DNA of 64,000 nucleotides, taken from the NCBI RefSeq assembly GCF_012932565.1, contig NZ_JABBYJ010000001.1, positions 310,001 through 374,000 of the forward strand, written 5' to 3'. Each line of letters begins with the position of its first letter. The first letter of the stretch is position 1. Shown here piece after piece: positions 36,379 to 50,995 of the stretch. The stretch is from Sneathiella limimaris. Lineage in GTDB: Bacteria > Pseudomonadota > Alphaproteobacteria > Sneathiellales > Sneathiellaceae. Under the pieces are notes generated by a model. That model was not told the origin of the DNA and ran no database searches. It worked only from the letters and a program-made list of their open reading frames with translations. A program made the translations under genes and the position numbers.

Positions 36379-38673
36379 TTAGACTTTCAATCCCATCATA
36401 TCACCCCGCTCCATCAAACGGCGCATCTGGTCAGCACCAGCCTCATAAGGCTTAGGCCATGCTGTTTGACCATCCTGCAATGCTGTTGCAGCATGCAATG
36501 TCCAGTATGGGTTACTCAGATGTGGTCGCGCCAGGCAAACCAGATCCGCGCGACCCGCCAGCAGGATGGAGTTTACATGATCCGGCTCATAGATATTTCC
36601 AACTGCCATAGTGGGTATACCGGTTTCATTTCGGATGCGGTCTGAAAATGGAGTTTGGAACATACGGCCATAAACTGGCTTGGCTTCAGTTGTAGTCTGA
36701 CCCGCCGAAACGTCGCAGATATCAACGCCTGCGGCCTTCAGCATCCTGGCGATCTCAACCGCATCTTCAGGCGTAATACCGCTTTCCCCAACCCAGTCAT
36801 TAGCCGAGATTCGAACAGAAATCGGCTTATCGTCGGGCCAAACTGCGCGCACCGCTGCAAATACCTCTAACGGATAGCGCATCCGATTTTCCAGCGACCC
36901 GCCATATTCATCGGTACGGTTATTGGTTACCGGTGTGATAAAGGACGACAGCAGATATCCGTGGGCGGCATGGATTTCAATCATATCAAATCCAGCAGCT
37001 TCCGCCTTCTTCGCCGCTTCAACAAACTGGTCCCGCACCAGGTCCATGTCCTCTCGGGTCATGGGTTTGGGTGCCTGATTTTCCGGGCTCCACGGAATGT
37101 CGGAGGCTGACATCAGCGGCCAGTTCCCCTCCAGAAGTGGCTGATCCATACCTTCCCAACCAACACGGGTTGACCCCTTGCGGCCAGAATGACCAAGCTG
37201 TGCACAGACTTTCGTCTCTGTCTCTGCATGAACAAAATCTGTGATGCGTTTCCAGGCGTCCACATGGGCATCGTCATAAAGTCCAGGACAGCCAGGTGTA
37301 ATCCGACCTTCACTGGAAACACACGTCATCTCAACATACAGCAATCCCGCACCGCCCTTGGCCCGCTCGCCATAATGCACCAGATGCCAATCAGTTGGGC
37401 AGCCATCAACCGCCTTATACTGTGCCATGGGGGAGACAACGATCCGGTTCTTCAGCTCCATACCCCGGATCTTATAGGGGGCAAACATAGGGGCCCGCTC
37501 TGAGGATGCCTCATCCGCACCTGCCTGCTGCTGGAACCATTTCTCAGCGCTAGCCAACCAGTTTGGATCCCGAAGCCGCAGGTTTTCATGGGAAATTCGC
37601 TGAGATCGGGTCAGCAGGGAATAATTAAACTGCACCGGATCCAGATCCAGATACCGCTCCACTTCCTCAAACCATTCCAGCGAGTTCCGTGCTGCGGATT
37701 GCAGTTTAAGCACTTCGAGGCGCCGCTCATCCTCATATTTTTCAAAAGCGGCTTCAAGGCTCACTTCACTTTGTACATAATCGGCAAGGGCGATCGCACT
37801 TTCCATGGCAAGTTTGCTGCCAGAACCGATGGAAAAATGGGCACTTGCGGCCGCATCCCCCATCAGAACCAGGTTCTGATGAGACCATCTCTCACACAGA
37901 ACACGGGGGAAATTAATCCAGGCGGAACCCCGGATATGATTGGCGTTGGTCATCAGCTTGTGACCATCCAGATAGTCTTTAAAGATCTCTTCGCAGGTCG
38001 CAATGGTCTCCTGCTGGCTCATCTCACCAAAGCCGTAATTCTCAAATGTCTCTTCGGAGCATTCAACGATAAAGGTCGCCGTATCATCATCAAACTGATA
38101 GGCGTGAACCCAGATCCAACCCTTCTCGGTTTTCTCGAAAATAAAGGTGAAGGCATCATTAAATTTCTGATGGGTACCCAACCAGACGAACTTACATTTG
38201 CGGACATCAATATCCGGCTTAAACTCAGCCTCAAACCGGGTCCGAGCTTTGGAATTCAATCCATCGGACGCTACAACGAGATCATATTCCGCCATCAAGG
38301 CATCAATGTCATCGACTTCGGTTTCGAACGTCAGATTGACACCAAGCTCCCTCGCCCGGTCCTGCAAAATCAATAGGAGCTGCTTACGGCCAATACCGCA
38401 AAAACCATGGCCGGTAGAGAGGGTCCGAACCCCCTTATGATAAACAGCAATGTCATCCCAGTACGCGAAATGCTTACGGATAATCTCGGCACTGACGGGA
38501 TCGTTGGCCTTCAGATTATCCAGCGTTTCATCGGACAGAACAACGCCCCAGCCGAACGTATCATCAGGCCGGTTCCGCTCAATCACCGTCACTTCATGCG
38601 ACGGATCTTTAAGCTTCATGCTAATGGCGAAATACAGACCAGACGGTCCACCCCCAAGGCATGCGATCTTCAT
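36379..38673 (-). CDS. abmA: 2-aminobenzoyl-CoA monooxygenase/reductase (fused flavoprotein)
   Basis: This 764-residue fusion has two parts. Residues 1 to ~385 form a flavin aromatic monooxygenase ([11 protein letters not shown] at the N-terminus; the GD motif in [16 protein letters not shown]). Residues ~395 to the end form an Old Yellow Enzyme-type reductase ([20 protein letters not shown], then [16 protein letters not shown] and [10 protein letters not shown]). This architecture is that of 2-aminobenzoyl-CoA monooxygenase/reductase, which hydroxylates and then reduces the ring of anthraniloyl-CoA. Salicylyl-CoA 5-hydroxylases are related, but the adjacent ligase supports the amino substrate. 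It is the first gene of the operon. Confidence 0.92.
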
Positions 38674-38815: not shown

Positions 38816-39733
38816 CTAAGCGATGAATTTCTTTTCCTGCAGGAGCGCCAAGAGTTCCTGCAGGGACTGATCCTCAGACTTGCCGCTGGTATCCAGGGTT
38901 GCGCCGGCTCGGGCATACATTGCCTCCCGACTATCAAGGAGGGATTTCAAGTGATCCATGGCTTCGGGGTTTCCAGCCATTGGCCGTTCATCCCCTTGCG
39001 CGCGGACCCGGTTCATATGCTCTTCCGGGGCTGCCTTCACCCAAACGGTATGAAAGTGATTGAGCAGGATGTTAAAGGTCAGTGGTTCCGAGACAATCCC
39101 ACCGCCAACAGCCAAAATAACACTGTCATGGGTCGCAACAACACGCTGAAGAGCCTCCGCCTCCAGCTTTCGGTACCCCTCCTGACCGTAAAGGGCCATC
39201 ACCTCACTCACCGGCATACCGCTTTGTTCCTCAATCCAGCTATTAAGCTCAACAAATGGAACATCGAGAAGTTCCCCGGCCCGTCGGCCAAGAGTACTTT
39301 TCCCGGCGCCGCGCAATCCGATCAGGCACACCCGACTTGCCCGGCGTGTTTCATCGGTGACCGGGCTTAAGAGCCGCATCACCGTTTCCTGCGTTTGATG
39401 ATCAGCTGATTTATAGGCTTCGGCAATTTTCAACACGTCAGAGGTCCAGGGATCTTCCTCACCTACGAACCATTCGATTTTGTGATCCAGGGCAATGGCG
39501 ACCCGTTGCAACAGGCCAATGGAAATATTACCTGCGCCTGTTTCCAACTGAGCCAGATAGCGCGGTGATACGCCTGACATTTCTGACAGGACGCGACGGG
39601 GAATCCCCTTGCTTTCACGCGCTTTGCGAACCCGATCACCCACATTGCTGATCAGTGTGTTGACAGCCTCCTCCATGAGGGAGGCATCTTCCAGAACCTG
39701 GGCTTCGCCTTTAAAATTTGTTATTTCCGCCAT
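38816..39733 (-). CDS. boxR: BoxR/BzdR-type regulator (HTH plus shikimate-kinase-like domain)
   Basis: This 305-residue protein has an XRE-type helix-turn-helix (residues ~30-88, SKGIPRRVLSEMSGVSPRYL) joined to a shikimate-kinase-like domain with P-loop GLRGAGKST at 139-147. This is the architecture of BzdR/BoxR, repressors of benzoate pathways that sense benzoyl-CoA. It lies downstream of boxA beyond a terminator and has its own promoter containing a TGTA/TGCA pair 10 bp apart (39812-39831), suggesting autoregulation. It probably controls boxCBA, the ligase operon and the TRAP operon. Confidence 0.93.
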   Translation of the reverse strand: MAEITNFKGEAQVLEDASLMEEAVNTLISNVGDRVRKARESKGIPRRVLSEMSGVSPRYLAQLETGAGNISIGLLQRVAIALDHKIEWFVGEEDPWTSDVLKIAEAYKSADHQTQETVMRLLSPVTDETRRASRVCLIGLRGAGKSTLGRRAGELLDVPFVELNSWIEEQSGMPVSEVMALYGQEGYRKLEAEALQRVVATHDSVILAVGGGIVSEPLTFNILLNHFHTVWVKAAPEEHMNRVRAQGDERPMAGNPEAMDHLKSLLDSREAMYARAGATLDTSGKSEDQSLQELLALLQEKKFIA

Positions 39734-39811
39734 TCTGTGCGCCCGTAAACCTTGTGCCTTTATTTTTGTATGGCACGCTTATCCCCCCTTAAGGACTTCA
39801 GACCAACGCCT

Positions 39812-39831
39812 ATTGTAATATAATGCACAAT
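39812..39831. promoter_or_regulatory. Probable BoxR operator at the boxR promoter
   Basis: ATTGT-N10-ACAAT inverted repeat that includes TGTA and TGCA tetramers spaced exactly 10 bp (39814 and 39824). It resembles the elements before boxC, the ligase and the TRAP operon, and lies about 80 bases upstream of boxR. Confidence 0.45.
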
Positions 39832-39887: not shown

Positions 39888-41084
39888 TCAATAGGTTTCA
39901 ACGTGATAGCGACCTTCTTCACGCATAGCGTCGCGAAGGGAAATCCATTGTTCCCCAATGCTTTCTGCAATATTGGTGAACGCCCGTTCGACCCCTTCTT
40001 CCATCCCACGTAAACCGCAGATGTAGATATGGGTGTTCGGATCCTGCAGGAAGCTGGCAACCTCATCCTGCTCGGTGATCAGACGGTCCTGCACATATTC
40101 CTTCGGCTTACCCGGCTCCCGGCTATAGACCAAATGCTTGGAGAGCACATCGTCCGGGATTTTCTTCAAGGGACCGAAATAAGGCAGGCTGTCTTCGGTG
40201 CGCGCGCCAAAAAAGAGGCTCATACCGCCCTTATGATTTGAAATCGTCCGCTGGCGCCGCATGGTGAAGGCCCGCATGGGGGCAGACCCCGTCCCGGTGC
40301 AGATCATCAGAAGCCGGGCATCCGGATCATCTGGCAACAGGAAGGTTGAGCCAAAGGGACCTGTGACCGTAACCTCGTCTCCTTGCGAAAGATCGCAAAC
40401 ATAGTTTGAACAAACGCCATTTTCTTCGCGTTTGACAGTCAGGGACACGTTGTTGAAGTTTGGCCGCTCCCCATCCCGAGGGCTGGAGACAGAATATAGA
40501 CGCGGCAAATGGGGGTTCCCATCCTTGTCCGTACCCGGAGGGATAATCCCGATCGTTTGTCCCTCCAACACAGGGAAAGAGAGATTTTCAAAGTTCAGGA
40601 TCAGATGCCGCACGTCAGAAGAGCTGTCCGCGCCTGTCAGGCGATAGTTCCCCTGCACAACCGCTTTGGCAGGTTTGCCCAGGGTATACATATTGATGGT
40701 TGGCTTCGGTGCGCTTTTCGGCGCCTTGGCTTTACCGCCCGCGCCTTTGTGAGCGTCGGCAAGCAGGGCCGCAATGGCATCATCGATTGCTTCCACCCCA
40801 TCAGAAGATCCATCCTCGCTTGGGCCGAAATCTTCCTGCTCTGGTAGTTCCATCCAGCTATATTGATCTTCTAGCGAGTAGCGCTCCTTCACCACGCGCC
40901 ATTCATCGATGGAGCCGGTTGGGCAGACCGGAATACAATCCATGCAGAAATCGCAAGTTTCCGGGTTGACCACCACATTGTTATCGTCATGTTCAATTGC
41001 CCCGATCGGACAGGTCATCTCGCAGGTGTAACAGCGAATGCAGATTTCCGGGTCAATCAGGTGCTGCTTTAAAGGCTGGGTCAT
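39888..41084 (-). CDS. boxA: BoxA, benzoyl-CoA 2,3-epoxidase reductase component
   Basis: This 398-residue protein has an N-terminal two-cluster ferredoxin domain (C15, C18, C21, C25 and C44, C47, C50, C54), an acidic/alanine-rich linker, and a ferredoxin-NADP reductase module (RLYSVSSPRDGE for FAD, ICTGTGSAPMRAF for NADPH, C-terminal EGRYHVETY). It passes electrons from NADPH to BoxB for epoxidation of benzoyl-CoA. It is the last gene of boxC-boxB-boxA, with a hairpin in the 64-base gap from boxB and a terminator right after. Confidence 0.96.
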   Translation of the reverse strand: MTQPLKQHLIDPEICIRCYTCEMTCPIGAIEHDDNNVVVNPETCDFCMDCIPVCPTGSIDEWRVVKERYSLEDQYSWMELPEQEDFGPSEDGSSDGVEAIDDAIAALLADAHKGAGGKAKAPKSAPKPTINMYTLGKPAKAVVQGNYRLTGADSSSDVRHLILNFENLSFPVLEGQTIGIIPPGTDKDGNPHLPRLYSVSSPRDGERPNFNNVSLTVKREENGVCSNYVCDLSQGDEVTVTGPFGSTFLLPDDPDARLLMICTGTGSAPMRAFTMRRQRTISNHKGGMSLFFGARTEDSLPYFGPLKKIPDDVLSKHLVYSREPGKPKEYVQDRLITEQDEVASFLQDPNTHIYICGLRGMEEGVERAFTNIAESIGEQWISLRDAMREEGRYHVETY

Positions 41085-41148: not shown

Positions 41149-42600
41149 TCAGGCGTCGTGCAGCTTAACATACTCGAAGTCGCCAGGCTTGCTATCAATG
41201 CCAACTTTTGGTGGAGCGATCCAGCTTGCATACTGGCCAGGCTCAGTGCAGGGCTTCATCAGAGACTGAATAAACTCTGAGTCGGCTTTGTTAGGCAACC
41301 AATTGTCGACATTCTTCTGGTAATCGGCATCAGACAGCATATTTCCATCTGGATCAAAGTTCAGACCAGCGAATACGCCGATTTTCCGGTTGAAGGCTTC
41401 GTGTGGCAGGGTGAAGGCAAAGTCGATACCGGCTTTTTCTATCACCTTGTTCCAGCGACCAACGCCACCAGCAGCATCCTTCACATAATCATCACGAAGG
41501 CGCATGTTAATAGCAGTAAGGGCCGGCACAGCATGGCGGGTCAGTTTGCCATCGACCATGTCCCAAACATCATAGGTGTCATTGGTCAGCTGATGGTCAT
41601 CGTCAATCCGAGGTTCCATGTACCGGCCTTTGATGCCGGCGTTAAATGCGTTCGCCGCATTGGTAGAAACTTCCTGACCGAAAAGGTCCAGAGACAGAGT
41701 GTAGTGCAGGTTCAGTTTTTTCTGCAGGGTTGGCAGGTCAATGACGCCAAGATCCCGGATTTTGTTAATCTCGAAAGGATCAGAAATGCCATTTTCTTTC
41801 ATCACCTGACAGGTCCGCTCTACTGTCCGGGAAACACCTGTTTCCCCAACAAACATATGATGCGCTTCTTCTGTCAGCATGAAGCGGCAAGTCCGAGACA
41901 GGGGATCAAAACCAGATTGCGCCAGGGATTCCAGCTGCATCTTGCCATCACGGTCCGTGAAGTAGGTAAACATGAAGAAAGACAGCCAATCAGGTGTTTC
42001 CTCATTGAAGGCACCCAGCATTCGAGGGGCTTCGCTACTTCCGGAACACCGGCGCAGAAGATCATCTGCTTCCTCACGGCCGTCTTTACCGAAATATTTG
42101 TGCAGCAGATAAACCATTGCCCAAAGATGACGGCCTTCTTCCACGTTCACCTGAAAGAGGTTCCGAAGATCATAAAGGGACGGCGCAGTAAGGCCGAGAT
42201 AACGCTGCTGCTCAACGGAGCCAGGCTCGGTATCACCTTGAATAACAATCAGGCGTTTGAGCATGTTGCGGTATTCACCGGGGACTTCCTGCCAGGCTGG
42301 CTCCCCTTTGTGCTGACCGAAAGGAATGGTCCGGCCTTCAACCTGCGGGGCGAGCAAAACACCCCAGCGATAGTCTGGCATGTTGACATAGCCAAATTTC
42401 GCCCAGCCTTTTGGATCCACACTGACGGCGGTCCGCAAATACACATCGGATTTCTGGAACCGTTCCGGGATCAGGCTACTCCACCAGTTGATATAACCTG
42501 GGTGCCATTTTTCCAGCGCCTTCAGAACTTTTCTGTCAGAGCTTAGTCCAACATTGTTGGGGATCTGCGTGTCATAACTGACATTCATTTGGTCGATCAT
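41149..42600 (-). CDS. boxB: BoxB, benzoyl-CoA 2,3-epoxidase oxygenase component
   Basis: This 483-residue class I-type diiron oxygenase converts benzoyl-CoA to the 2,3-epoxide. Putative iron ligands are visible as VEEGRHLW (E154/E155, H158) and TEEAHHMF (E244/E245, H247/H248). The length and the terminal region (YASWIAPPKVGIDSKPGDFEYVK; key WIAPP and FEYVK) match BoxB. An AGGAG site precedes the ATG. It is flanked by boxC upstream and boxA downstream. Confidence 0.96.
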   Translation of the reverse strand: MIDQMNVSYDTQIPNNVGLSSDRKVLKALEKWHPGYINWWSSLIPERFQKSDVYLRTAVSVDPKGWAKFGYVNMPDYRWGVLLAPQVEGRTIPFGQHKGEPAWQEVPGEYRNMLKRLIVIQGDTEPGSVEQQRYLGLTAPSLYDLRNLFQVNVEEGRHLWAMVYLLHKYFGKDGREEADDLLRRCSGSSEAPRMLGAFNEETPDWLSFFMFTYFTDRDGKMQLESLAQSGFDPLSRTCRFMLTEEAHHMFVGETGVSRTVERTCQVMKENGISDPFEINKIRDLGVIDLPTLQKKLNLHYTLSLDLFGQEVSTNAANAFNAGIKGRYMEPRIDDDHQLTNDTYDVWDMVDGKLTRHAVPALTAINMRLRDDYVKDAAGGVGRWNKVIEKAGIDFAFTLPHEAFNRKIGVFAGLNFDPDGNMLSDADYQKNVDNWLPNKADSEFIQSLMKPCTEPGQYASWIAPPKVGIDSKPGDFEYVKLHDA

Positions 42601-42664: not shown

Positions 42665-44326
42665 TTACACACGTTCCATGTTGTAATTGCCGCGAACACC
42701 GGTTCCGTAGCGCTGCAATGCACCCTCGGAGCCGACAGCGTTTGGCCGGTTGAAAATCCAGTTCTGCCAGGCTGTCAGGCGACCAAAGATCCGGGTTTCC
42801 ATTGTCTCAGGCCCAGCAAAGCGCAGGTTGGCTTCCATACCAGTCATGGCATCTGGGGAGAATGATGCCCGCTCTTCCATGAAGATGCGGATTTCATCTT
42901 CCCAATCGATATCATCTAGGATCATGGTCACCAGACCCAACTCATCGGCCTCTTCAGCTTCCAGTGCCTCGCCTTTATGCTCTTCTGCCTTTTTGAGCGC
43001 ATCCGCATCCCCGAGGAAACGGGTTTGCAAACGGGTCAGATCATTGCCCATCGGGAATGGACCAAAGTTGGCATCGGTCAGGGTGACAGTTGCAATTGGC
43101 CGGTTATCGCCTTCGAACTCATCTTCCATCATGTAGCTGCGATCCACAGCGAACAGAAGCTCTGCCAAAACGCCGGTAAAGCAGGAGCCATGCTCGACAA
43201 GTGCGATCAGAGAGCGAGAGGTCACATCGACCCGCTTCAAGACGCGTTTCCAGTATTTCAGGGTTTCATTGGCCAGCCAGTGATCGGCATTGTTCAACAG
43301 CAACGCTTCGTGAGCGGCAAACTTTTCAGGATCACCCTGTGTGCGGAATGCCAGAAGTCCCACTTCCATCTCATTAAGACGTAAATGCAGGATCGCATCA
43401 TCCAGTTCGCGCGCCAGTTTCAGCATATAGGCCTGATCACCTTTTGCTGTGAAGGCGGCCATATCTGCAGGCGCGTCTTCTTCTGGACCATGCAGGGTAA
43501 TGGTTGCCTTGCGCCCAGCGCGATCGACCTGAACTTCCACCAATGAATAGGTGACAGAGCCATCGTCTGCAATTTTCCGATCCAGCGGTCCCAGCTTGAT
43601 GCCTTCTTTCACATCTGCTTTTTTGGAATTGGCTGCAAATTCCTTAGCCCGTTCTTTCACGGCATCATCGAATTTGGAATTGGCAACGACCTCATCCACA
43701 AGGTGCCAGTCGAGGGCTTTTTTCCCCTTCACACCTTCTTCGGTGGAACAGAAAATATCTGCCCGATCCCGACGGACTTTCCGTTTGTCTGTGACGCGGG
43801 TTAATCCGCCGGTGCCAGGAAGAACAGCAAGCAGGGGAACCTCAGGCAAGGCAACAGAGGATGTGCTGTCATCGGTTAGCATAATATAGTTGCAGGCCAG
43901 CGCGAGCTCATACCCGCCGCCAGCGCAAGCGCCTTTAACGGCTGCAATATATTTCTGGCCGCTATCTTCTTCAGCTGCCTCGAATGTGTTCCGGGTCTCG
44001 TTCGTGAATTTACAAAAATTGACCTTATGGCTATGGGCAGCCCCGCCCAGCATGCGAATGTTCGCACCGGCGCAGAACACATTCTCCTTACCGGACTGCA
44101 TGACAACAACTTTCACTTCCGGATGTTCAAAACGCATGCGCTGAACAACATCGGCAAGCTCAATGTCCACACCCAGGTCATAGGAGTTGAGCTTCAACTC
44201 ATAACCATCAAACAGACCACCCTTCTCATCCACATCCATGTAGAGATTGGCAACATCCCCATCATATTCCACTTTCCAGTGGCGGTATTTGGACGGATCG
44301 GTTTGAAAGTCGATCATTTTAGTCAT
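42665..44326 (-). CDS. boxC: BoxC, 2,3-epoxybenzoyl-CoA dihydrolase (ring-cleaving)
   Basis: This 553-residue protein is made of two crotonase-like halves, as in BoxC. The first half has ENVFCAGANIRML and KGACAGGGYELALACNYI-type oxyanion segments; the second has EHGSCFTGVLAELLFAVDRS. It hydrolytically opens the epoxide ring to 3,4-dehydroadipyl-CoA semialdehyde and formate. It is the first gene of boxCBA, with GGAG before the ATG. Its promoter region carries several TGCN pairs at 10 bp spacing. The aldehyde dehydrogenase for the next step (boxD) is not in this window. Confidence 0.95.
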   Translation of the reverse strand: MTKMIDFQTDPSKYRHWKVEYDGDVANLYMDVDEKGGLFDGYELKLNSYDLGVDIELADVVQRMRFEHPEVKVVVMQSGKENVFCAGANIRMLGGAAHSHKVNFCKFTNETRNTFEAAEEDSGQKYIAAVKGACAGGGYELALACNYIMLTDDSTSSVALPEVPLLAVLPGTGGLTRVTDKRKVRRDRADIFCSTEEGVKGKKALDWHLVDEVVANSKFDDAVKERAKEFAANSKKADVKEGIKLGPLDRKIADDGSVTYSLVEVQVDRAGRKATITLHGPEEDAPADMAAFTAKGDQAYMLKLARELDDAILHLRLNEMEVGLLAFRTQGDPEKFAAHEALLLNNADHWLANETLKYWKRVLKRVDVTSRSLIALVEHGSCFTGVLAELLFAVDRSYMMEDEFEGDNRPIATVTLTDANFGPFPMGNDLTRLQTRFLGDADALKKAEEHKGEALEAEEADELGLVTMILDDIDWEDEIRIFMEERASFSPDAMTGMEANLRFAGPETMETRIFGRLTAWQNWIFNRPNAVGSEGALQRYGTGVRGNYNMERV

Positions 44327-44357
44327 CAGGTTTCTCCCTTACGAGCATCCTCGATAT

Positions 44358-44448
44358 TTGCAATATATTGCCAAAAACTAATTTCGTAAAGACATATATC
44401 GCATAATTTTGCAATTAATCAATAAGAAAATGCACTATAATGCATTTT
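44358..44448. promoter_or_regulatory. Probable BoxR operators upstream of boxC
   Basis: Three pairs of TGCN-type tetramers each 10 bp apart: TGCA/TGCC at 44359 and 44369 (containing the perfect palindrome GCAATATATTGC), CGCA/TGCA at 44400 and 44410, and TGCA/TGCA at 44431 and 44441. The last pair sits in a perfect inverted repeat, AAAATGCA-N6-TGCATTTT. TGCA repeats are the known element of BzdR operators. Confidence 0.65.
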
Positions 44449-45712: not shown

Positions 45713-47251
45713 TTATGCACCTTCCCGAAGCTTGAATCGCTGGATTTTTCCGGTTGCGGTTTTTGGCAAGTCATCAACAATCTCGATCCAACGAGGATAT
45801 TTCCACTTCCCAATTTTTTCTTTCACCACCTCTTTGAGCTCATCTGCCAGATTTGGGGATCCTTCCCCTTTGAGCACAACATAGGCTTTCGGCTTTTCCA
45901 GACCTTCCGGATCCTGCCAAGGAACAACAGCGGCTTCCAAAACAGCCGGATGCTCAATCAAGGCCTGCTCCACCTCAAATGGGGAAACCCAGATACCGGA
46001 CACTTTGAACATGTCGTCTGTGCGCCCACAATAGATATAGCGCCCGTCCGCCGTTTTTTCATATTTATCACCGGTTCGCGTCCAGAAGCCCTGAAAAGTG
46101 GACTGGGATTTCTCGCGCTTGTTCCAGTAACCTTCTGCGGAGGATGGCCCAGAGACTAGTAATTCCCCGACATCACCAACACCGACCTCTTCATCATTCT
46201 CATCAACCAGGCGGACTTCATAACCGGGAACAGCCCGACCGGACGTTCCATAGGCAATGTCACCCGGACTGTTGGAGAGGAAAATATGCAGCATTTCAGT
46301 GGAGCCAACACCATCGACAATGTCTACACCCCATTGGGATTTCCATTTCTCCCCAATTTCTCTCGGAAGGGCTTCACCAGCAGAGACACACATGCGAAGG
46401 GCGTCGTGATTAGCTGAGCCATTTGCCTCTGTCAGGGCGACCATGGCTGCATAAAGCGTTGGGACACCGCAAAAGATGCTAGGGTTTTCCGCGTTAAAGA
46501 TATCAAAAACACCTTGCGGAGTTGGCCGACCGGCAAAAATCACTGTCGTTGCGCCAACAGCCATCGGAAAGGACATGGCATTGCCAAGCCCATAGGCAAA
46601 GAACATCTTGGCCGCTGAATAAACGACATCATCTTCCTGAATACCGATGACCTGTTTACCAAATGTATCAACCGTTGCCTTCAGGCTGGAATGAACGTGA
46701 CGAACACCTTTTGGCTGACCGGTTGATCCAGAAGAATAAAGCCAGAAAGCCATTTCATCTGCAGAGGTTTCGGCAACTTGGGCTGGTTCAGCGCCTTTGA
46801 TAAAGTCCTCATAAGAAACGGTACCCTCCGGAGCGTTTCCTATGACAATCACATCTCTGAGGGAGGGTATATTCTTGATGATCGGCTCAGCCACTTCCCA
46901 AAGCGCTTCGGAAACCACAAGAACTGAAGCACGGGCGTCTTTCAAGATCACCTCATAAACCGACGACGAAAGAAGCGTATTCAGCGGGACCGGAACAGCG
47001 CCTTCTTTCATAGCGCCCCAGAAAATGACCGGAAATTCAACCTGATCAAGAACGATCATGGCAACCCGCTCTTCCCGCCGAACTCCAGCGCGCTTCAACG
47101 CACCAGCAAACCGGCTGCTCTGATCGGCAAGTTGACCATATGTGAGGCTGCGCTTGGCACCATCCGCTTCACGAAAAGCGACCTTGTCCGCCCGACCTTC
47201 CTCCAGATGCCTGTCCACAAAATAGAGGGCCGCGTTTTGGGATTGTGACAT
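45713..47251 (-). CDS. bclA: Benzoate-CoA ligase (AMP-forming)
   Basis: This 512-residue AMP-forming ligase has the P-loop motif YSSGSTGQPKG, the adenylate motif DGVGSTEMLHIF and the C-terminal LPKTATGKIQRFKL. It fits the benzoate-CoA ligase group in length and motif. It activates benzoate to benzoyl-CoA, the BoxA/BoxB substrate and BoxR effector. GGAGGAGG precedes the ATG. Its promoter has two TGCN pairs with 10 bp spacing, one overlapping a likely -10 box, which indicates repression by BoxR. Confidence 0.93.
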   Translation of the reverse strand: MSQSQNAALYFVDRHLEEGRADKVAFREADGAKRSLTYGQLADQSSRFAGALKRAGVRREERVAMIVLDQVEFPVIFWGAMKEGAVPVPLNTLLSSSVYEVILKDARASVLVVSEALWEVAEPIIKNIPSLRDVIVIGNAPEGTVSYEDFIKGAEPAQVAETSADEMAFWLYSSGSTGQPKGVRHVHSSLKATVDTFGKQVIGIQEDDVVYSAAKMFFAYGLGNAMSFPMAVGATTVIFAGRPTPQGVFDIFNAENPSIFCGVPTLYAAMVALTEANGSANHDALRMCVSAGEALPREIGEKWKSQWGVDIVDGVGSTEMLHIFLSNSPGDIAYGTSGRAVPGYEVRLVDENDEEVGVGDVGELLVSGPSSAEGYWNKREKSQSTFQGFWTRTGDKYEKTADGRYIYCGRTDDMFKVSGIWVSPFEVEQALIEHPAVLEAAVVPWQDPEGLEKPKAYVVLKGEGSPNLADELKEVVKEKIGKWKYPRWIEIVDDLPKTATGKIQRFKLREGA

Positions 47252-47385: not shown

Positions 47386-47453
47386 ATATGCTTTATAATG
47401 CATATCACAGAACAAACACAACTGAATAACGCTAATTTATGCAATTTTTTGCA
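47386..47453. promoter_or_regulatory. Probable BoxR operators upstream of the benzoate-CoA ligase gene
   Basis: ATATGC-N8-GCATAT (47386-47405) contains TGCT and TGCA exactly 10 bp apart; a second pair, TGCA/TGCA, lies at 47440 and 47450. On the minus strand the first pair overlaps a TATAAA that could be the -10 element with TTGTGT 18 bases upstream. Confidence 0.62.
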
Positions 47454-47475
47454 ACATTCGCTTTGAATTCGATCT

Positions 47476-47510
47476 GCCCCAAGGGGCCTCTGCCAGCCTT
47501 ACGCTGGCAG
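47476..47510 (-). terminator. Back-to-back hairpins at the end of the TRAP operon
   Basis: CTGCCAGC/GCTGGCAG with a five-base loop (47490-47510) spans the dctM stop codon, and GCCCC/GGGGC (47476-47487) follows at once. No T-run is seen after them, so termination may be inefficient or Rho-assisted; 3'-end stabilisation is the alternative. Confidence 0.5.
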
Positions 47511-48815
47511 AAGGAATAGGGTAATGGCAGGGAAAGCCACTAATATAATCACCCGGATCAGATCGGATGCCACGAAATAACCAACTGCCTTGTAGGTTTC
47601 GACCAGCGGCGTTGTTTTCTCCATGGTATTGATAATAAAAAGATTCATCCCAACCGGCGGGGTAATCAGACCGACCTCCACCACGATCAGAACCAGAATA
47701 CCAAACCAAATCGCCAGATGTTCCGGGCTCATTCCAAAATCCAGAACACTGATCACCGGGAAGAAAATCGGGATGGTCAGAAGGATCATGGAAAGGCTGT
47801 CCATCAAACACCCAAATACCAGATAGAAGATTAGAATCAGGCCGAGGATGACCCAAGGGCTGAAACCCTGACTAATCACATAATTGCTCAGCTCCTGAGG
47901 GACCTGGGTCAGGGCAAGGAACCCATTATAAAAGGCGGCCCCGAGAATGATGAAAAACACCATGGCAGTGGACTTAGCCGTCACGAGGAAGCTTTCCTTG
48001 AGGGTTACCCAGTTCAGTCCGCCATTCAGGTAGGCAATTAAACCGGTTCCAAAAGCACCAACCGCTGCGCCTTCTGTTGGGGTAAACCAGCCCAAATAGA
48101 TGCCGCCAACCACAAGACCGAACACGACCAAAACCGGCCAAACATCTCTCAACGCACGAAAACGATCAGTATAAGGGACCGGAGGGCGGGTCCCAGCAGA
48201 GCCGGGATTTCGGCGCACGTAAATGGAAATTGCAATCACATAGCCAAGCGCGGCCAACAGACCAGGAATGAACGCAGCCAGGAACAGCTTGGCGATATTC
48301 TGTTCTGTCAAAATCGCATAAATCACCAAGACAACTGACGGCGGGATCAAGATCCCCAAGGTTCCACCAGCTGCCAAGGTTGCAGTCGAAAAGCCACCGG
48401 CATATCCGTATTGTTTCAGCTCTGGCAGAGCCACACGGCCCATTGTTGCAGCGGTTGCAAGGGAGCTTCCGCAGATCGCGCCAAAACCGGCACAGGCGCC
48501 AATGGCTGCCATGGCAACGCCGCCTTTACGATGACCGACAAATCCCTCAGCCGCCTTAAAGAGCGCCGAACTCATCCCGCCCAGAGTGGCAAAATGGCCC
48601 ATCAACAGGAACATGGGAACGATCGTCAGGGAATAAGAGGAAAATGTTGTATAGGTTTCATTCTTTAGGCGGGCAAAAGCCACTGTGGTGCCATCGGTTA
48701 CGAAATAGAGGCCGACGAGACCGACAACAAACATGGCGAGCCCGATCGGAACCCTGAGAAAAATTAGCAGCATCAGCGCCGGAAAGGACGCAATCCCTAT
48801 CTCAAGACCACTCAT
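47499..48815 (-). CDS. dctM: TRAP transporter large permease (DctM-type)
   Basis: This 438-residue polytopic protein has the DctM features: the hydrophobic N-terminus LMLLIFLRVPIGLAMFVVGL, GACAGFGAICGSSLATAATMG and a late VEVGLITPPVGMNLFI. It couples sodium flux to uptake of an organic acid. It overlaps dctQ by four bases and ends within a hairpin. Its promoter's shared operators point to benzoate or a related aromatic acid as substrate; that is inference. Confidence 0.92.
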   Translation of the reverse strand: MSGLEIGIASFPALMLLIFLRVPIGLAMFVVGLVGLYFVTDGTTVAFARLKNETYTTFSSYSLTIVPMFLLMGHFATLGGMSSALFKAAEGFVGHRKGGVAMAAIGACAGFGAICGSSLATAATMGRVALPELKQYGYAGGFSTATLAAGGTLGILIPPSVVLVIYAILTEQNIAKLFLAAFIPGLLAALGYVIAISIYVRRNPGSAGTRPPVPYTDRFRALRDVWPVLVVFGLVVGGIYLGWFTPTEGAAVGAFGTGLIAYLNGGLNWVTLKESFLVTAKSTAMVFFIILGAAFYNGFLALTQVPQELSNYVISQGFSPWVILGLILIFYLVFGCLMDSLSMILLTIPIFFPVISVLDFGMSPEHLAIWFGILVLIVVEVGLITPPVGMNLFIINTMEKTTPLVETYKAVGYFVASDLIRVIILVAFPAITLFLLPA

Positions 48816-49396
48816 AACTCTGACTCCACAGGATCGATCAAGACTTCCCGGTTGGTAATAAATTCAATAAGACGGATGTAGGCCACGTATACGCCAACGA
48901 CGGCCGAGCTGACCGCCCCTATGAAACTGGCGAGATATGCCCACCAGATGGGGAATTGCAGCAAAAATGTTGTCTCCCCATATCTTTGCTTGGAGAGCAA
49001 GCCATCAAAAAGCCGCCAGGCAATGAGAACAAGAACTGCTGCAAACAGGAATTCAATGAGCACCTGCAGGAACCGGTTAGCCCGCTCGGGAAGCTGATTT
49101 GTAAACAGATCCACCACAGCATGACCAGCCGTTAGCTGACAAATGGGAATAAAGGCAAAAATGGCGAACGCGACCCCTGCCTCCACCAATTCGAAATCCC
49201 CGTTGATAGGACCAATACCAACTTCAATCAGCCAGTTGGAAAATCCGGGGGCAATAGATTGCATAAAATCACTATGCAAGCCGCCGTTCATCAAGCGCCC
49301 CAAAATGGACAGGCAAGTCAAAACAACCAGAAAAGACAGAACCAGTCCGCCCAGATAAGCCATAAAGCGGGCAAAGGCCATCATGAAATTTTTCAT
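48812..49396 (-). CDS. dctQ: TRAP transporter small permease (DctQ-type)
   Basis: This 194-residue protein has four hydrophobic segments, the usual DctQ topology, with the conserved LTAGHAVVDLFTNQLP loop in the middle. It forms the membrane complex with DctM. It lies 78 bases after the binding-protein gene, across a strong hairpin. Confidence 0.88.
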   Translation of the reverse strand: MKNFMMAFARFMAYLGGLVLSFLVVLTCLSILGRLMNGGLHSDFMQSIAPGFSNWLIEVGIGPINGDFELVEAGVAFAIFAFIPICQLTAGHAVVDLFTNQLPERANRFLQVLIEFLFAAVLVLIAWRLFDGLLSKQRYGETTFLLQFPIWWAYLASFIGAVSSAVVGVYVAYIRLIEFITNREVLIDPVESEL

Positions 49397-49474: not shown

Positions 49475-50521
49475 TTATTTGGAGTATTTCTCAATCAGCA
49501 TTTTTGCTTCTTCGAGAAGGGCCTTACCGTCTTTTCCTTTGCTGTCCATATCAGCAACCCACTTGTCGTAAACCGGTTGAGCCAGTTTGCGCCATTCTTC
49601 AGTTGCTGCAGCATCCAAAGTGATGATGTTGTTGCCAAGATCGACAGCTTTCTTGCGGGCTGGACCGTCAGCGTCGGCCTGTGTACCACCAGCAAAGACT
49701 GAGAATTCTTCACCAGAGTTATCATCGATCACCTTCTTCAGATCATCAGGCAGGCTTTCATACTTGTCTTTGTTCATAGCCAGAACAAAAGTCAGTGTGT
49801 ATAGCGCCGCACCAGAGAACTCAGTGTGGTTTTTCACAAGCTCAGGAACTTTCAGTGCAGCAGTAACTTCCCAAGGGATCGTTGTTCCATCGATCACGCC
49901 TTTGGACAGCCCTTCTGGAACAGCTGGAACCGGCATACCCACAGGAGTTGCTCCCAGTTCAGTCAGCAGGAAGTTTACAGAACGGGAACCACCACGGATT
50001 TTCATACCCTGAAGATCAGCTGGGGAATTCACCGGATCTTTCGTATGGATTACACCCGGACCATGAACCCAAGTACCCAGAATGTGTACATCCTTGAATT
50101 CATCATCTTTCATGTGCTTTTCAAACATCTGCCAGTAAGCACGGCTCACAGCGCGAGCATTTGTCATCATAAAAGGAAGTTCGAAGACTTCAGTTGTTGG
50201 GAAACGACCTGGAGTGTAACCCACAACTGTCCAGACGATATCAGCAACACCGTCAATCGCTTGATCCATCAGCTCAGGTGGCTTACCGCCAAGTTGCATA
50301 GATGGGAAATGACGAACTTTGATCCGACCGTTGGAGTCTTCTTCAACTTTTTTCGCCCATACATCCAAAATCAGCTTCGGAACGTTAGCCTGCGCTGGCA
50401 AGAATTGATGCATTTTCAGCGTAACATCTGCAGCCATTGCAGAGCCAGCCAACACACCAGCTGTCAAAACAGATGCGATCGTTCCACCGACAACACCCAT
50501 AAGTGTTCTACGTTTGATCAT
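49475..50521 (-). CDS. dctP: TRAP transporter periplasmic binding protein (DctP-type)
   Basis: This 348-residue binding protein has a twin-arginine-like or Sec signal (MIKRRTLMGVVGG) ending about AMA at residue 30, then VTLKMHQFLPAQ. The DctP core includes LQGMKIRGGSRSVN with the substrate-binding arginine. It is the first gene of the TRAP operon. Its promoter carries five phased TGCN elements, so it is predicted to be induced with the box genes and to bind benzoate or another aromatic carboxylate. Confidence 0.9.
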   Translation of the reverse strand: MIKRRTLMGVVGGTIASVLTAGVLAGSAMAADVTLKMHQFLPAQANVPKLILDVWAKKVEEDSNGRIKVRHFPSMQLGGKPPELMDQAIDGVADIVWTVVGYTPGRFPTTEVFELPFMMTNARAVSRAYWQMFEKHMKDDEFKDVHILGTWVHGPGVIHTKDPVNSPADLQGMKIRGGSRSVNFLLTELGATPVGMPVPAVPEGLSKGVIDGTTIPWEVTAALKVPELVKNHTEFSGAALYTLTFVLAMNKDKYESLPDDLKKVIDDNSGEEFSVFAGGTQADADGPARKKAVDLGNNIITLDAAATEEWRKLAQPVYDKWVADMDSKGKDGKALLEEAKMLIEKYSK

Positions 50522-50995
50522 TGATACCTCCCACTGATCATTTTTTGCATTATTATGCTCATTATTGCCATATACTGCACAATAATGCCAGCCCTATTTC
50601 GCTTTTCCTGTAATTGAGAAATGCGCAATTAATCGTTGACTGCAGAGTTTACATAAATTGACAGGACTGTCCGCAAAGAAGTGCAAAAATTCGGAATATA
50701 GCGACGGAAATCCAAAAATCAGGCGTATATGTCCAACCTATAGAAAAGAGAATTGGTTATATTTATTTGTGTAGAAATGTCTTTCCTGAGAATCTTACCT
50801 TTAAATCATCATGGTAAACCAACCGGAAAAGGCGTATATTCAGGAGCTTAAGAACAGGGACACTGAACTAGCCAAATAACAAGTCTGATCACCTTCCTTC
50901 CCTTCAGAGGAATGGAGAGGGTTTTGAGTGGAAAACCAAAACACGAGTTCCTAACGTATAATTATGTAACCTAGCCAATATTGGAAAAGGGCAAG
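50522..50995. other. Non-coding region between the TRAP operon and the second RND pump
   Basis: This ~470 bp AT-rich region holds divergent promoters. Near the TRAP side are five TGCN tetramers at 10 bp spacing (50546-50589) and an inverted repeat TAATTG-N9-CAATTA (50611-50631). The rest, towards the RND adaptor, shows no gene or clear site. Confidence 0.6.
50546..50589. promoter_or_regulatory. Five-fold phased TGCN array at the TRAP promoter (probable BoxR site)
   Basis: TGCA, TGCT, TGCC, TGCA and TGCC begin at 50546, 50556, 50566, 50576 and 50586, exactly one helical turn apart. The array lies 25-68 bases before the dctP start, over the promoter. The same 10 bp-spaced element occurs at the boxR, boxC and ligase promoters. 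Confidence 0.65.

Follow-up and report, generated by a model that had tools for sequence, protein, structure and literature searches.

The locus examined here raises the question of which regulator reads a helically phased array of TGC words in front of dctP, the first gene of a putative operon for a tripartite ATP-independent periplasmic (TRAP) transporter that stands beside the box genes of Sneathiella limimaris. In the 64,000-bp stretch of this genome that was analysed (the window), the tetramers TGCA, TGCT, TGCC, TGCA and TGCC begin on the forward strand at exactly 50546, 50556, 50566, 50576 and 50586. A sequence-only reading had placed them there and directly upstream of dctP, and both points hold: the array lies 25-68 bp before the dctP start (open reading frame (ORF) 49475-50521, minus strand). 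The same reading proposed a cooperative repressor, BoxR, making five equivalent contacts at exact 10-bp steps. Comparison with related loci makes it likely that the local BoxR acts on the dctPQM promoter through this array as its operator, but with a core of two palindromic dimer sites instead of five equivalent contacts.

We scored candidate sites with a motif learned from other genomes. Eighty loci with a boxC relative from named genomes (the best 80 of 580, with titles mostly from Rhodobacterales and kinship ignored) contain 126 exact TGCA-N6-TGCA sites, 66 of which lie within 400 bp upstream of boxC, 23 upstream of the benzoate-CoA ligase gene, 8 upstream of boxR, and 4 upstream of dctP; of the rest, 21 lie elsewhere and 4 fall within query-set genes. 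A symmetrised 20-bp position weight matrix (PWM) was built from 99 distinct sites that lie no more than 300 bp before boxC, ligase, or boxR in other genomes, with a threshold of 11. Because the window was not used in training, scores for dctP, the window, and the congener G008 are non-circular, while site counts for boxC, ligase, and boxR in relatives are partly circular, since exact sites there trained the PWM. The genome holds the bare TGCA-N6-TGCA core at 54 places, against 12 for a reversed-pattern control, and ~56 are estimated from base composition; it is thus not diagnostic alone, and the extended motif was used in its stead. A 9-bp peak in TGCA spacing, spread across several loci, was set aside and plays no role in the argument.

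Four overlapping registers of this motif were found in the array:

50546-50559, minus strand: proximal BoxR-type palindrome AGCATAATAATGCA, half-sites 1 and 2 (PWM 17.2; 20-bp match at 50543-50562).
50556-50569, minus strand: second inner register GGCAATAATGAGCA, weak, half-sites 2 and 3 (PWM 8.7; 3.0 in G008).
50566-50579, minus strand: overlapping inner register TGCAGTATATGGCA, half-sites 3 and 4 (PWM 16.0; 2.5 in G008).
50576-50589, minus strand: distal BoxR-type palindrome GGCATTATTGTGCA, half-sites 4 and 5, 30 bp upstream of the proximal one (PWM 11.5).

All four have the TGCA-N6-TGCA spacing, and the array shows the AT-rich, TATA-like centre seen in ATGCACTATAGTGCAT. The outer palindromes are located near -71 and -41 relative to dctP, and the proximal one contains a -10-like hexamer, CATAAT. 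The octamer TGATCATT occurs twice in this region, at 50515-50522 and 50535-50542, 20 bp apart and spanning the dctP start and the leader.

Ten positions in the window score at least 11, and nine of them fall in the intergenic regions that precede dctP, ligase, boxC, and boxR, four stretches that together make up 968 of the 64,000 bp; three of these nine are inside the array. A profile model (R1) was also built without the window, from 90 of the 99 training sites (nine omitted arbitrarily) and six dctP sites of relatives, whose two-base coordinate offset was corrected by MAFFT. Unfiltered scanning of the window with R1 placed its best eight hits in the same four regions, with the proximal palindrome of the array second, behind a site before boxC. 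The palindrome was again second genome-wide among 150 of 1,353 candidates scored, a ranking that is not exhaustive, in which the boxC site at 44428-44447 was the best place. The sites outside the array are as follows:

47437-47456, minus strand: BoxR-type site before the ligase gene, TGCAAAAAATTGCA (PWM 17.2).
47386-47405, minus strand: second BoxR-type site before the ligase gene, 51 bp from the first (PWM 19.8; aligned G008 counterpart 15.3).
44428-44447, minus strand: BoxR-type site before boxC, TGCATTATAGTGCA, overlapping the end of the DUF309 ORF by 13 bp (PWM 21.8; aligned G008 counterpart 18.1).
44397-44416, minus strand: second site before boxC, 31 bp from the first (PWM 12.0).
44356-44375, minus strand: third site before boxC, also among the genome-wide R1 results (PWM 16.4).
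39811-39830, minus strand: BoxR-type site before boxR (PWM 16.9; aligned G008 counterpart 14.0).

Upstream of the G008 ligase gene, TGCAAAAAAATGCA (score 19.7) is found at a distance similar to that of the 47437-47456 site, and the two are unpaired in the alignment. Two matches fell outside this pattern. The tenth PWM match in the window, inside dctQ at 49247-49266 (12.6; 17.6 at the same position in G008), was considered as an auxiliary operator and rejected: we take it as coding because the protein is similar there (MQSIAP / LQDIAP), the identity around it does not depart from the gene's average, and scores at this place are low in other relatives. The sole off-cluster R1 place among the genome-wide candidates scored lies before a second dctP (PF03480; L114:3943-3962, G000:C1:1944443). 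It was taken as chance; nothing of that strength was detected within 200 bp upstream of the gene in six congeners (best 6.7; L122 excluded because of a contig end).

By protein families, the minus-strand gene order is dctP, dctQ, dctM, benzoate-CoA ligase, an alpha/beta hydrolase, a DUF309 protein, boxC, boxB, boxA, and boxR:

49475-50521, minus strand: dctP, TRAP solute-binding protein, first gene of the putative operon (PF03480; NF037995).
48812-49396, minus strand: dctQ, TRAP small permease (PF04290).
47499-48815, minus strand: dctM, TRAP large permease (PF06808; TIGR00786).
45713-47251, minus strand: benzoate-CoA ligase (TIGR02262, 757 bits against a cut-off of 375).
42665-44326, minus strand: boxC (TIGR03222, 964 bits).
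41149-42600, minus strand: boxB (TIGR03225, 909 bits).
39888-41084, minus strand: boxA (TIGR03224, 529 bits).
38816-39733, minus strand: boxR, proposed repressor with helix-turn-helix (HTH) and shikimate-kinase-like domains (PF01381, PF01202; NF006015, 386 bits against a cut-off of 204).

The cluster thus encodes a cognate BoxR with both domains expected of this family. At each position of the stretch SGVSPRYLAQLE in its HTH, which we take to hold the recognition helix, the residue present in the window occurs in 80-100% of 66 BoxR proteins, and the motif of the relatives should therefore apply in the window. Close to boxR, ORF 36379-38673 encodes a protein with FAD_binding_3 and NADH:flavin oxidoreductase domains, a combination that presumably resembles salicylyl-CoA hydroxylase-type fusions and suggests more aromatic-CoA chemistry beside the box cluster.

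A regulator other than BoxR was considered as a rival reader of the array. One form of this idea is an AraC/XylS-type BenR, which reads TGCA-N6-GGNTA and shares the TGCA half (PMC6449761); another is a GntR or IclR protein reading an inverted repeat with perfect 8-bp arms and a 12-bp spacer at 50560-50587, CATTATTG-N12-CAATAATG. The inverted repeat is real in the window and is not intact in G008, and TGCA-N6-GGNTA does not occur in the array, where the closest match by eye is TGCA-N6-GGCAA. Pfam revealed no AraC, GntR, or IclR protein among the 20 proteins scanned at 36379-62831, a search that did not extend to the rest of the genome. Moreover, the same motif stands at the boxC, ligase, and boxR promoter regions here and in many relatives. 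We regard a different regulator as very improbable.

Chance was assessed on the phasing itself. In dinucleotide-preserving shuffles of 50522-50760, runs of at least four TGC or GCA at 10-bp steps were never reached (0 of 20,000), while runs of at least three appeared in 0.37%. The array is the sole run of at least four identical trinucleotides at a 10-bp step in the window, where other step lengths do give runs (for example, eight at 15 bp). Across the 3.66-Mb genome, four phased TGC words occur at two places, the dctP array, which extends to five, and C1:2372215; the five-fold run is confined to the dctP array. The shuffle test is post hoc and concerns one pattern, and the region is AT-rich (37% GC), so that TGC words in such a leader could in principle have fallen into phase and been picked after the fact. 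Given the shuffle result, together with motif and conservation evidence that is independent of it, this explanation is scarcely credible.

Conservation in the genus bears on how the array is organised. A search of 23 congeners yielded a close dctP in G008 alone, at 86% identity, with the others reaching 50%. Local alignment of 330 bp upstream of the two genes covers only the array block and the leader to the start codon, in which GGCATTATCATGCA...GGCATTATAATGCT of G008 is aligned to GGCATTATTGTGCA...AGCATAATAATGCA of the window, with both pairs 30 bp apart. From distal to proximal, the registers score 11.5, 16.0, 8.7, and 17.2 in the window and 13.5, 2.5, 3.0, and 12.0 in G008; that is, the outer palindromes are retained and the middle half-site is degraded. 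Together with the PWM scores, this supports the earlier proposal of TGCA-type half-sites over the dctP promoter. The motif also matched at two off-cluster places in G008, L115:2164-2183 (PWM 16.3) and L116:1977-1996 (15.4), the latter at the ORF start of a MaoC-like dehydratase.

More distant relatives were compared through their box-linked dctP genes. Of 34 loci with a dctP match, 30 were used, and L021, L026, L046, and L050 were excluded because less than 300 bp was available upstream; gene starts were placed by homology, and not all are start codons. The condition set by the earlier reading, that relatives keeping the box genes should also keep the array before dctP, held only in part. Besides G008, 16 of the 30 have a site scoring at least 11 within 300 bp upstream (0.52 expected from shuffles), 11 of them at -117 or nearer, and 14 have none. 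A palindrome pair 28-31 bp apart near the start is present in eight of the 30, and in 0 of 3,000 shuffles: Shimia (L002), a Kordiimonadales genome (L004), L012, Antarcticimicrobium (L014), L031, Ruegeria (L036), L055, and L070. Seven of these pairs are spaced by 29 bp and that of L002 by 30 bp; in Seohaeicola (L024), a pair is 19 bp apart. In all ten cases (the eight relatives, G008, and the window), the proximal site holds a -10-like hexamer ending 19-34 bp before the homology-inferred start. The middle half-site is inconsistent: a counterpart (at least three of four letters, offset 19 or 20) was detected in the window and in L002, L004, L055, and L070, but L012, L014, L031, L036, and G008 lack one. 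Paralogous dctP genes, 36-53% identical and the cleaner negative set, have a site within 400 bp in 1 of 24 cases, and no site was found at the start regions, mostly coding, of boxB (0/80), boxA (0/64), dctQ (0/31), or dctM (0/31). Taken with the nine of ten PWM matches at box-cluster promoter regions, the conserved sites support BoxR as the likely regulator.

These data bear on the proposal that a cooperative BoxR chain engages the five half-sites simultaneously, touching the DNA once per turn. Each of the four registers does reach a score of 8.7 or more in the window, and chains of three half-sites spaced by exactly 10 bp are found before boxC in 19 of 78 relatives; in five of these 19, every half-site of the chain is TGCA. 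However, in G008 the inner registers score only 2.5 and 3.0, most of the dctP relatives with a pair have no middle half-site or one that is out of phase, and the spacing of that pair is mostly 29 bp; dimers on overlapping palindromes would also, on structural grounds, compete for the shared half-site. We therefore consider such a chain unlikely. Since the inner registers fail in G008 and eight relatives keep the pair at 29-30 bp, the conserved design is two TGCA-N6-TGCA-like palindromes (of the GCA-N6-TGC type) on one DNA face, separated by about three helical turns, and the central half-site is a local addition in this species.

The idea of a single helix face holds for the regulon as a whole, but the spacing follows the helical repeat and not an exact 10-bp step. 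Sites in the window are separated by 30 bp at dctP, 31 bp at boxC, and 51 bp at ligase. For 158 neighbouring non-overlapping distances at the four promoter types in relatives, the best period was 10.95 bp with a vector strength of 0.66, which none of 2,000 jittered controls, evaluated on a coarser period grid, reached. The distances cluster near 20, 29-33, 40-43, 51-54, 61-65, 72-76, and 83-85 bp. When they were collapsed to 60 distinct promoter-distance values, the vector strength was 0.52, again with 0 of 2,000 controls.

Several observations weigh against BoxR control of dctP through these palindromes. Exact TGCA in both halves is found in none of the four array registers, while it is present at one boxC site and one ligase site of the same cluster, and a consensus scan of 50500-50760 yielded no sigma-70 promoter. 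The genome-wide R1 search, among the candidates scored, missed the ligase site and gave the dctP site an E-value of 1.98. In the 19-kb stretch of G008, the dctP sites take no better than ninth and tenth place and are outscored by coding matches in dctQ (17.6) and dctM (14.3); R1 listed neither of the two sites, and three of its five G008 places are outside the box cluster. The G008 sites are supported by position and alignment, not by score alone. Among the 16 relatives with a site, five have it only at -245 to -298. The 14 genes lacking a site within 300 bp include all five Tateyamaria loci examined; an extended search, over 3 kb upstream or as far as the locus end, added a site of at least 11 for four of them (L011, L038, L052, and L080). 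Conversely, G046 (L109), in which no BoxR match was obtained at 1e-20, has a ~67% identical dctP with one site of 11.6 at -100, and no strong site precedes the boxR genes of G011, G014, and G018 (56-59% identical).

The dctP leaders of Pseudosulfitobacter and Tateyamaria (L005, L007, L027, and L039), which have no nearby pair, share by eye a block of approximately GTTACAAA...GGTGACAG, with the version GTTACAAACGCGCGTGACAG in L039. This block is possibly the site of a different promoter or regulator.

Based on these findings, we propose a likely mechanism by which BoxR would control the transporter. First, in the absence of benzoate, BoxR dimers would occupy both outer palindromes, probably touching each other, and cooperate to block dctP transcription: the proximal site overlaps the -10-like hexamer, and the distal site lies where RNA polymerase would meet the upstream promoter. 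Benzoate, the putative TRAP substrate, would then enter and be converted by the cluster-encoded ligase to benzoyl-CoA, the presumed effector, which would bind the shikimate-kinase-like domain of BoxR. Benzoyl-CoA-bound BoxR would leave the DNA, the transporter, ligase, and box genes would be induced together, and uptake and breakdown of benzoate would rise together. The extra central half-site in this species fills the gap between the palindromes and creates two overlapping inner registers, and would allow two alternative tilings: 50546-50559 with 50576-50589 (three turns, as in the relatives) or 50546-50559 with 50566-50579 (two turns, with the higher summed score). We tentatively speculate, as a rather doubtful extension, that these exclusive tilings act as a register switch, making the response of the transporter promoter to benzoyl-CoA tighter or more graded than that of the enzyme promoters, a feature that would be absent from G008.

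If this model is correct, BoxR docking at dctP would tie uptake to breakdown, the TRAP transporter would join the benzoyl-CoA regulon in these Alphaproteobacteria, and it would become a candidate for benzoate uptake. The BoxR regulon, which the available part of PMC6449761 describes for Betaproteobacteria, would extend to marine and other Alphaproteobacteria. The compact, phased two-dimer operator would also offer a small, clean system for studying cooperation between sites of a repressor combining XRE and shikimate-kinase domains.

The following comparison relies on those portions of the cited papers that were accessible. The array motif directly matches the published BoxR/BzdR motif (PMC6449761, PMC6678401), for which multiple TGCA-N6-TGCA sites several turns apart have been described (PMC6449761). 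The BoxR operators of Betaproteobacteria (Suvorova and Gelfand 2019, PMC6449761) are likewise located upstream of box genes and benzoate transporters. The linked transporters in that group are ABC systems and BenK, whereas a TRAP system is present here, and the half-sites of the array are degenerate (GGCA, AGCA) with overlapping registers. Within the partial coverage of our literature search, no report was found of a TRAP transporter as a BoxR target in work on BoxR or the box pathway and TRAP, nor of a BoxR regulon in Alphaproteobacteria; uptake of 4-hydroxybenzoate by a TRAP system encoded beside pca genes has been reported in a roseobacter (PMC12442348). XylS/BenR sites, TGCA-N6-GGNTA (cited in PMC6449761, PMC6678401), share the TGCA half and the N6 spacer with the array, but their second half is asymmetric and their protein is an AraC-family activator. 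The arrangement also resembles the BzdR operator regions OR1-OR3 of the Azoarcus PN promoter, in which TGCA palindromes also cover the promoter, several dimers bind cooperatively, and benzoyl-CoA is the inducer (PMC6678401). That promoter, which additionally requires activation by AcpR, has three regions over ~180 bp and forms a loop, whereas the dctP operator is compact, at 44 bp. The operator type is thus already known, and the array very probably extends a known switch to another type of transporter instead of representing a new mechanism.
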